A stretch of 64,000 nt of DNA from Curtobacterium sp. S6 (GTDB lineage Bacteria; Actinomycetota; Actinomycetes; Actinomycetales; Micrococcaceae), in NCBI RefSeq assembly GCF_000710345.2, contig NZ_KL537414.1:1-64000 (forward strand). Direction: 5' to 3'. Shown in pieces: positions 32,609 through 62,682 of the stretch. The number at the start of each line of letters is the position of its first letter. Position 1 is the first letter of the stretch. The notes under the pieces were generated by a model. It did no database searches, had not been told where the DNA came from, and was given only the letters and a program-made list of their open reading frames with translations. A program made the translations under genes and the position numbers.

Positions 32609-32901
32609 CCAAACGGCGGATCACCTTAATCGTTTCGTGATCCAATCCTCCGTGAGAGCCGAGCGCCCCGGGCCGGTTTAAGGTCGATTTTCGAGGACGT
32701 TAACCTTCTGTGCGAGAGGACACGTTAAAATTTTGGGGAGGAATCGGTGTGGTGTATCACTCCGTGCGGGCGCCCTTCGATCCCCATCATGGCGGGGATC
32801 GGGCAGGTCCTTCCGGCTACGGGGGTCGGCGAGATGTGGCGCGCGTCAAGGCCGGAAACCCGTTCCGAATCGTGCTTGTACGGGGTTGCCGTGATCAAAA
32901 C
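32609..32901. other. Non-coding gap upstream of the riboswitch promoter
   Basis: No convincing gene is seen. An inverted repeat GGATCAC (32618-32624) with GTGATCC (32637-32643) lies just after tdk and may help end its transcript. A -10-like TAAAAT lies at 32726-32731, and GGGGAGG at 32735-32741 resembles a ribosome site in front of a short open frame that runs to 32973 and enters the riboswitch. I do not call that frame a gene. Confidence 0.4.
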
Positions 32902-32930
32902 GTGACTTTTGGTGATCGTGTGTGTACGCT
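32902..32930 (+). promoter_or_regulatory. Promoter of the riboswitch-NlpC/P60 transcript
   Basis: GTGACT (32902-32907) and TACGCT (32925-32930) are 17 bp apart. The predicted start near 32937 is about 30 nt before the aptamer. The match to consensus is moderate. Confidence 0.5.
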
Positions 32931-32965
32931 CGTAATCGTGCCAATCACTGGTCGAGACGGCACCA

Positions 32966-33146
32966 CCGAGTAGAACGCCTAGCTCTGCCACTACGCGGTG
33001 AAACCAAAAAAACCAAACACGTCCGATGGCAGAGGCGGGGGACCCAATCATCTGGGTTCTTCCTCGTAAGAGCCCTTGGGGTTAAGTCGCTCAGGCGACC
33101 GGGTGTCTCCCATCCGAACCCGACAGCTCACCTCGCAGGCACAGGG
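32966..33146 (+). ncRNA. c-di-AMP riboswitch (ydaO-yuaA leader)
   Basis: The region has the signature blocks of the ydaO/yuaA aptamer in actinobacterial form. GCGGGGGACCCAA lies near 33035, GGGGTTAAGTCGC followed by a short hairpin (GTCGC TCAG GCGAC) lies at 33079-33099, and the hallmark CCCGACAGCTCACCTCGCAGGC lies at 33119-33140. This class binds cyclic di-AMP and is known in actinobacteria upstream of wall-hydrolase genes. The aptamer ends only 3 nt before the ribosome site GGGAGGA (33144-33150), so control of translation is possible. No clear intrinsic terminator is seen between aptamer and gene. Confidence 0.92.
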
Positions 33147-33162
33147 AGGAAAAACTTTTATC

Positions 33163-33771
33163 ATGGCTAAGCACATCGCGCGTCACCGCGCAGCAACCCA
33201 GTCCCACGTCGTCCGTAACACCGGTATCGCAGTTGCCGCCGCCGGCGTCGTTGCAGGTTCCGTCGCCCCGGCTAACGCTTTCGCCGAGGCCGCTCCGGTC
33301 CAGAACACCGCCGCCACCACTCAGGCGACCAACGTTCAGACCGTTGACTACTCCACCGATTACAGCAACCAGGGTCAGACCGTCGACAACGCCGCTGCCA
33401 GCACCGGCGCTGCCACCGGTAGCCGCGCCAAGATCGTTGAGGACGCCAAGTCCGGCATCGGCGGCTCCTACGTGTGGGGCGGCAAGAGCTTCAAGGCTTG
33501 GGACTGCTCCGGCTTCGTCTCCTACGTTGCCGCTCAGTCCGGCGTTCAGCTGGATTCCTACACCTACTCGATGAAGGATCAGCTGACCCCGACCTCGGCT
33601 CCGCAGCCGGGCGACATCGTCTTCACCAACAACTACGCCCACGTCGGCATCTACCTGGGTAACGGCGAGATGGTCTCCGCTCTCAACCCCAGCCAGGGCA
33701 CCATCATCACCTCGGTCGATGGTGGCGGAATGATGCCGGTTGATGGCTACTACAGCATGCCGGGAATGTAA
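33163..33771 (+). CDS. Secreted NlpC/P60 peptidoglycan hydrolase
   Basis: A 202-residue exported endopeptidase expected to cut stem peptides of peptidoglycan. A signal peptide (about 1-41, ending ANAFA) is followed by an Ala/Thr/Gln-rich linker (42-88) and a compact NlpC/P60 domain (88-202). The catalytic Cys115 is in WDCSGFVSY and His160 in YAHVGIYLG. It is small and lacks the coiled coil seen in RipA-type proteins. GGGAGGA precedes the ATG by 12 nt. Codon use is strongly biased, suggesting high expression. The c-di-AMP riboswitch and the strong terminator make this a single regulated unit. Confidence 0.94.
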   Translation: MAKHIARHRAATQSHVVRNTGIAVAAAGVVAGSVAPANAFAEAAPVQNTAATTQATNVQTVDYSTDYSNQGQTVDNAAASTGAATGSRAKIVEDAKSGIGGSYVWGGKSFKAWDCSGFVSYVAAQSGVQLDSYTYSMKDQLTPTSAPQPGDIVFTNNYAHVGIYLGNGEMVSALNPSQGTIITSVDGGGMMPVDGYYSMPGM

Positions 33772-33806
33772 TTTCCGTAACTCAAGTTTCACTTTGTGAG
33801 GCACGA

Positions 33807-33843
33807 GGGGCGTCCGGGAGGGAAACCCGGACGCCCCTTTTTT
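33807..33843 (+). terminator. Terminator of the NlpC/P60 gene
   Basis: A perfect 12-bp stem (33807-33818 with 33826-33837) followed directly by six T (33838-33843). This is a textbook intrinsic terminator 36 nt after the stop codon. Confidence 0.95.
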
Positions 33844-61817: not shown

Positions 61818-62053
61818 AACTTCCAATCTATACCCCGTCGAAAAACTTCGGAGGAAGGACTTTTCAACCGGGGAAGTTCTTGGGTACGCTGGTGAACAGC
61901 TTCAAGAGACCCAACTGCCAAGCTCCGACTTGGTTGGGCACCAACCCCATGTTCACGGGTGGTTCGGATGACGAAGCGGTCTATATTCGCCGCGCCTGCG
62001 GCACTGATGTTTGGTATAGGCAAGAGCATCGAAAGGATTGCGCAATCGCGCTG

Positions 62054-62245
62054 ATGGCCATGTCCACCTCCACTCCCCGCCCCGATTTCTCCGCGGCGGT
62101 CCCCGTTTCCCATGGGTACCGTGCCATGAGCATCCAGGACTACGCGCGGGTCGACTCCGCGCGGACGGAATTCCTCAACTTTTTGCTGGCGCCGGCGGGC
62201 ACCGGTGAGCCCATCGTCTCTCTGGCGGTGGACAACGCCGCATGA
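62054..62245 (+). CDS. Small protein overlapping the PIN gene, candidate antitoxin
   Basis: A 63-residue frame whose stop overlaps the PIN gene start by ATGA (62242-62245), the usual layout of antitoxin then toxin. The second half (DYARVDSARTEFLNFLLAPAGTGEPIVSL) faintly recalls Phd/YefM antitoxins, but I cannot confirm that. The true start is unsure: ATG 62054, ATG 62060 and ATG 62126 are in frame, and the frame is open back to 61880. AAAGGA at 62032-62037 is 16 nt from the first of these. It may be shortened or decayed. Confidence 0.45.
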   Translation: MAMSTSTPRPDFSAAVPVSHGYRAMSIQDYARVDSARTEFLNFLLAPAGTGEPIVSLAVDNAA

Positions 62246-62682
62246 GTTCTGGCTTGCGCGGCCTCCTGCTGGATTCCGATGTTCTCGCCGAGATTCGTCG
62301 GTCACGGCCGAATCCCACGATCGTGGCGTTCCTTCGCCGCAGGTCGCACCGAACCCTGTTCGTCTCGGCGCTGTCCGTGGGAGAGCTGAAAGGCCTGTAC
62401 CCGCACGGTGAGACCGATCGCTGGCTGGACGAGCTCGGCGAACGCTTCCAGGATCACGTGCTGAACGTCGACCCCCAGGTGGCCCGCGCCTGGGCGGGGC
62501 GTTCGACCCCTGATTCCATACTTCGCATGGGCAAGCACGCCTCGACCTCGTGGACGGGCGCGGCCGTGGAAGGCCTGGTCGCCGCGACGGCCGAGGTGCA
62601 CGACCTCACGGTGGTGTCCTCCAAAGCCGACGTCTACCGGGCATGGGGCGTCGAGGCGCAGGACCCCTGGCGAGAGAGCTAA
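62242..62682 (+). CDS. PIN-domain protein, VapC-like toxin candidate
   Basis: A 146-residue PIN-fold nuclease of the type found in VapBC toxin-antitoxin pairs, which cut tRNA or other RNA. The acidic residues are Asp11 (LLLDSDVL), Glu48 (SVGELKG), then Glu110 (AAVEGLVAATA) and Asp130 (SSKADV). The third position is normally Asp (as in DALIAATA), and the usual TRN motif near the fourth is SSK, so the active site is altered but may still bind metal. The overlap with the small upstream frame supports a pair. It is divergent from the SNF2 gene and converges on a glycosyltransferase. Confidence 0.78.
   Translation: MSSGLRGLLLDSDVLAEIRRSRPNPTIVAFLRRRSHRTLFVSALSVGELKGLYPHGETDRWLDELGERFQDHVLNVDPQVARAWAGRSTPDSILRMGKHASTSWTGAAVEGLVAATAEVHDLTVVSSKADVYRAWGVEAQDPWRES

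Follow-up and report, generated by a model that had tools for sequence, protein, structure and literature searches.

A putative translational c-di-AMP riboswitch ahead of an nlpC-like gene, with the Shine-Dalgarno sequence probably held in the aptamer pseudoknot

The window, a 64,000-nucleotide stretch of the Curtobacterium sp. S6 genome, carries an nlpC-like gene (33163-33771, + strand) with a c-di-AMP riboswitch in its leader and an intrinsic terminator behind it. The gene encodes a 202-residue protein whose NlpC/P60 domain occupies residues 101-190 (NLPC_P60, PF00877; 73 bits, cut-off 23), in agreement with the NlpC/P60 hydrolase that a preliminary description had placed after the riboswitch. 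Sequences of 25 solved structures match the protein, the best at 63.3 bits, and inspection by eye finds a signal-like N-terminus and the motifs DCSGF and HVG; eight NCBIfam hits all score far under their cut-offs. The nearest named relatives belong to Kocuria sp. 36, K. massiliensis and Rothia species (six loci, 51-78% identical). Kocuria sp. 36 (L034) has another NlpC relative as well, with 66% identity across residues 41-202, and no aptamer anchor was found in its locus.

Transcription is expected to start at about 32934-32938, downstream of an inferred promoter (32902-32930, + strand) made up of a -35 element GTGACT (32902-32907), 17 nt and a -10 element TACGCT (32925-32930). A consensus promoter scan of the leader found none. 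GTGAC-N(16-18)-TANNNT is present in 32 of the 33 leaders from the genus and in 0.6% of shuffles; the one miss, L013, has the motif by eye. The terminator (33806-33843, + strand) consists of a perfect 13-nt inverted repeat (33806-33818/33826-33838) followed by T to 33843, and its folding is strong (-35.8 kcal/mol, z -6.28). A promoter and a terminator of the gene's own, as first described, are supported.

The riboswitch matches the c-di-AMP (ydaO) family RF00379 at 33001-33153 (+ strand) over model positions 1-134 of 134, with 68.3 bits against a gathering score of 38 and an E value of 9.9e-14. This Rfam model search bears out the ydaO-type assignment originally made from the letters. By contrast, minimum-energy folding of 32930-33200 misses the aptamer; the fold it gives has z -1.47 and is matched in stability by 19 of 200 shuffles. 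The match is the only one in the 2.75-Mb genome, and 33 of 35 genomes of the genus, this one included, have exactly one; the two without are 65% and 87% complete. Genomes of the family differ in this respect from those same-genus genomes, with up to nine c-di-AMP riboswitches each (e.g. G067, G040, G129), some neighbours lying about 1.1-1.4 kb apart. An NlpC-like coding stretch lies at most 1.3 kb downstream of all 34 genus anchor hits (33 loci). Elsewhere such a target follows 4/31 hits in the family, 20/24 in the order, 15/29 in the class, 3/20 in a further order and 2/19 in a further class, counts in which 11 hits lacking an NlpC-like match had less than 400 nt of sequence available. A riboswitch of this class with an nlpC-type target is already a known kind, exemplified by C. 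glutamicum nlpC (PMC9960051).

In the RF00379 alignment the aptamer core occupies 33035-33136 (+ strand), opening with the P2 5' strand GCGGGG and closing with the P2 3' strand CCTCGC. The same alignment misplaces the 5' half of the aptamer, assigning P1 and P0 to poorly pairing nucleotides. A P1 that closes the aptamer, with the P0 hairpin between P1 and P2, emerges once P1 is moved to 32977 and P0 to 32983, and not as Rfam aligns them. The P1 5' strand GCCT (32977-32980, + strand) then pairs with AGGC (33137-33140, + strand), and P1 has 3-4 of 4 pairs in all 90 long-P0 aptamers when the best of seven offsets is taken. Both P1 strands are almost invariant, and the change is clearly compensatory in one row only (GCTT/AAGC). 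The P0 5' arm CTCTGCCA (32983-32990, + strand) pairs with the 3' arm TGGCAGAG (33027-33034, + strand) across a loop of 36 nt. Across 24 genus sequences 96.9% of P0 cells are paired; three of the eight pairs show compensatory change and five never vary. The 5' end of the aptamer thus lies at about 32977, or 32964 with the helix described below, and not at 33001.

The comparative set combines the top-scoring matches from every search with 40 loci chosen from the lists, and is a sample of the matches, not the whole. P0, defined by motif, was found in 124 of 157 anchor hits, a total that counts L013 two times and takes in a spurious anchor in L154; 105 of the 124 were nonredundant, and 90 had a loop of at least 18 nt and are called long-P0. 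Five named loci were omitted because they repeat genus rows. The 40 chosen loci yielded 38 anchored loci (39 hits), 29 with a motif P0, 26 nonredundant and 22 with a long loop.

A further helix, X, joins ten bases upstream of P1 and separated from it by 3 nt (32964-32973, + strand) to the first ten bases of the P0 loop, directly after the P0 5' arm (32991-33000, + strand). Nine of its ten positions pair, with one A-G mismatch. X crosses P0, the strands following one another as X arm, P1 strand, P0 arm, X arm and P0 arm. At a threshold score of 15, X is called in 80 of the 90 nonredundant long-P0 aptamers and the other 10 fall below; when loops were permuted among sequences, the mean was 13.2 and the maximum 25 in 2000 permutations. 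Among the 22 long-P0 loci fetched after X was first noticed, 19 carry it. Before the loop-length cut, X is found in 19/21 aptamers of the genus, 21/24 of the family, 21/23 of the order, 12/14 of a further order and 7/12 of a further class, and in none of the 11 of a first class set, where no loop reaches 18 nt.

The pairs of X covary. Within 24 genus sequences, seven of the eight pairs counted have changed on both sides in a compensatory manner, and 86.5% of X cells are paired. All nine pairs vary on both sides across 88 distinct sequences, where 64.8% of X cells are paired against 48.1% in shuffles and 35-53% when slid; this alignment keeps to a single rigid register, without fitting to X, and so counts rows with other spacings as unpaired. 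Further pair types in it barely exceed the shuffles (41 against 37.5; 27 of 500 shuffles). In a search unrestricted in spacing, the best helix lies 7-11 nt ahead of the P0 arm and 0-2 nt past it in 71 of 90 aptamers, against 12% after swapping. Directly abutting X, at the expected mRNA 5' end, is hairpin U (32938-32942 with 32959-32963, + strand), paired in 95% of cells in the 24 genus sequences and with compensatory change in one of five pairs only; folded alone it is unremarkable (z -0.86). The structure of U, X and P0 together is 92.5% paired in those sequences and 29-48% when slid. The loop of U reads CACTGGTCG in many same-genus leaders.

On this comparative evidence, an H-type pseudoknot is the probable fold of the aptamer's 5' half, with X stacked on P0 and the 5' strand of P1 placed in a crossing loop; the close abutment of X and P0 fits stems stacked in this way. 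We infer that X and P0 form together in one molecule. A less probable reading is that X competes with the aptamer, an early 5' hairpin trapping the P1 and P0 5' strands in its loop so that the aptamer stays unfolded until ligand binding or refolding wins. X is indeed a stable local hairpin on its own (-13.3 kcal/mol, z -2.57 in the window), it is transcribed ahead of the P0 3' arm, and its loop contains both the P1 and the P0 5' strands. A competitor would have no need to abut P0, however, yet in the unrestricted search the best helix begins 0-1 nt after P0 in 76 of 90 aptamers. That X and P0 share no nucleotides does not bear on the choice, because neither P0 nor the six bases ahead of it were open to the search.

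If X and P0 do form together, the RF00379 family model lacks a helix conserved in most of the sampled long-P0 members (80/90), and helix X would be lost from any annotation or RNA construct trimmed to the Rfam boundaries. The preliminary description had recognized the aptamer and missed both its true 5' half and helix X. It had also ended the aptamer 3 nt before the ribosome site GGGAGGA, which does not hold: the Rfam match itself covers the Shine-Dalgarno sequence GGGAGG (33144-33149, + strand), and the latter is complementary to a loop of the aptamer.

The loop strand in question is CTCCC (33107-33111, + strand). Its complementarity to GGGAG (33144-33148), CUCCC with GGGAG in the RNA, sits at the position of the ydaO pseudoknot, and the first five bases of the Shine-Dalgarno sequence would double as the pseudoknot 3' strand. 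The mean fit of a loop to its own tail exceeds that to permuted tails among long-P0 aptamers (13.76 against 12.08, n=91), within the genus (13.04 against 11.40, n=23) and among the other aptamers (14.55 against 12.26, n=42), with none of 2000 permutations reaching the observed mean in any group. The signal is modest: after swapping, the threshold of 11 is still reached by 81% of pairs in the long-P0 group and 84% in the other group, because loops are pyrimidine-rich and tails purine-rich. The pairing shifts register between species, as in CUUCAU with AUGGAG or UCCAU with AUGGA.

By script-assigned Shine-Dalgarno sites and start codons, the pseudoknot strand overlaps the Shine-Dalgarno sequence by at least 3 nt in 80 of 91 long-P0 aptamers and in 12 of the 42 others. 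The Fisher p of 1.5e-11 overstates this difference, because lineage confounds the comparison, start codons were script-assigned and some of the 42 have an undetected P0. The 42 others, or short-P0 aptamers, include P0s missed by the motif (e.g. the second aptamers of L043, L044 and L045, and L115 and L160), and several motif-missed aptamers are among the 12 with a fused Shine-Dalgarno sequence.

A close parallel comes from C. glutamicum nlpC (cg2402), which has the same RNA family, the same type of target and no canonical terminator (Reich et al., 2023; PMC9960051). There, raised c-di-AMP lowers reporter fluorescence while the transcript and the second cistron are unchanged, and the element is described as an OFF switch that is most likely translational (PMC9960051). 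Its authors suggest that CTCC of the riboswitch might pair with GGAG of the ribosome site (PMC9960051). The present comparison supports that suggestion and would equate the proposed pairing with the aptamer's own pseudoknot. The systems differ in that C. glutamicum nlpC heads a seven-gene operon (PMC9960051), whereas a terminator follows the gene here. Helix X goes unmentioned in the available text on C. glutamicum nlpC (PMC9960051).

Taken with comparative support for family membership, P1, P0, X and loop-tail complementarity, these observations make it likely that the element is a c-di-AMP OFF riboswitch acting on translation, with its Shine-Dalgarno sequence locked in the aptamer pseudoknot and its 5' half probably folded as the P0-X pseudoknot. 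We infer that this aptamer binds c-di-AMP. Binding would lock the aptamer together with the pseudoknot between the hairpin loop (CUCCC) and the 3' tail; the locked tail strand would be the gene's Shine-Dalgarno sequence, ribosomes would be excluded, and high c-di-AMP would mean that less NlpC wall hydrolase is made. The OFF switch in C. glutamicum and a DisA domain encoded in this genome (94.3 bits, cut-off 27) both lead to the same expectation, that high c-di-AMP should lower NlpC synthesis. No DHH phosphodiesterase was found in the one genome searched, this one, although DisA is present; one PF01663 phosphodiesterase is encoded. On that result, c-di-AMP turnover here may differ from that of C. 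glutamicum.

Control at the level of transcription, by early termination or Rho-independent attenuation, has precedents, and is nevertheless improbable here. The c-di-AMP riboswitches of Streptomyces rpfA (PMC10117811) and B. thuringiensis kdp (PMC6488665) are reported to act on transcription, and in C. glutamicum the riboswitch sequence lowered the transcript irrespective of c-di-AMP (PMC9960051). Against these stand a C. glutamicum transcript that did not respond to c-di-AMP, a Shine-Dalgarno sequence that lies within the aptamer fold, and a leader that shows no T-rich terminator from the aptamer to the start codon. The last point rests on reading the sequence, which shows no T run after the aptamer; a terminator scan also listed none on the + strand of the leader, weak evidence given that it left the gene's real terminator unlisted as well. 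The absence of a clear terminator before the ribosome site, and with it the leaning toward translational control, had been part of the preliminary description, and both are supported, the former on reading of the sequence, the latter by the loop complementary to the Shine-Dalgarno sequence and by the related nlpC riboswitch (PMC9960051).

Other members of the family share parts of this arrangement. The available reports on Streptomyces rpfA and cell-wall hydrolase riboswitches (PMC10117811; PMC8079986) describe the same family with wall hydrolase targets in actinomycetes, and an action by transcription termination unlike the one read here. The sampled class-level short-P0 aptamers, none identified as Streptomyces, are without X, and their Shine-Dalgarno sequences are mostly separate. 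Bacillus ydaO/kimA-type riboswitches have the conserved core and the loop-tail pseudoknot in common with this one (crystallised ydaO RNA; PMC5393176). That paper names a 5-6-bp pseudoknot, following Nelson et al. (2013), and the crystallised 108-nt ydaO RNA printed there has, on our own reading of its letters, a loop complementary to the 3' tail. The Bacillus-type expression platform is an intrinsic terminator (B. thuringiensis kdp; PMC6488665), absent here as far as the sequence can be read.

There is an even chance, in our estimation, that actinomycete c-di-AMP riboswitches come in two architectures, one with a short P0 and a separate Shine-Dalgarno sequence, the other with a P0-X pseudoknot bracing the core and the Shine-Dalgarno sequence serving as a pseudoknot strand. 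The ribosome site is likewise part of a ligand-stabilised pseudoknot in the preQ1, SAM-II and SAM/SAH riboswitches, whose folds and ligands are unrelated to the c-di-AMP class. If the two architectures are real, the second would amount to a subclass with translational control built in, within a riboswitch class known otherwise chiefly for terminating transcription. For C. glutamicum nlpC a translational mechanism had been no more than a suggestion; the present comparison supports it and makes it testable by small loop changes in a reporter. Neither helix X nor the split between long-P0, fused and short-P0, separate forms was found described before in a literature search that stopped short of the key primary ydaO structure papers.

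Regulation at this locus may involve a second input. A direct repeat GTGATCAA-N3-GTGACTTT with a period of 11 (32891-32909, + strand) overlaps the -35 element and loosely resembles an MtrA box; GTRAYC-N5-GTGAC recurs in 24 of 33 same-genus leaders. The published MtrA consensus is RTAACAATttnRTAACAAT, an 8-bp direct repeat with a 3-bp linker, and sites are reported near -10 where MtrA is a repressor and upstream of -35 where it is an activator (PMC3353115). By hand count the repeat agrees with that consensus at 9 of 16 positions; its period of 11 and its conservation fit, and its position over the -35 element falls between the two reported positions and fits neither clearly. The genome encodes MtrA (363 bits, cut-off 300). 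A second regulatory input through this putative MtrA-like repeat is plausible, and because the repeat is conserved and MtrA is encoded, c-di-AMP is probably not the only input. The gene had been called a self-contained link from c-di-AMP to wall cutting, a view that stands as regards its own promoter and terminator and is doubtful as regards c-di-AMP as the sole input. It is very improbable that the inverted repeats U and X act at the DNA level, as sites bound by a regulator, and not as helices in the RNA: they do lie just downstream of the inferred promoter, but the covariation of all nine X pairs across the 88 sequences (with pairing above the shuffled and slid controls) and the tie of X's position to P0 and P1 argue against it, as a sequence-specific DNA site should vary less.

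A second riboswitch lies elsewhere in the window, within 61900-62682 (+ strand). It belongs to the SAM-IV class and, at 57.9 bits, scores lowest among the genome's four. It precedes a short ORF and a 146-residue ORF whose match to a PIN domain stays below threshold (17.3 bits, cut-off 23.6). The ORF pair looks like a toxin-antitoxin pair, which would be an unusual setting for such a riboswitch.
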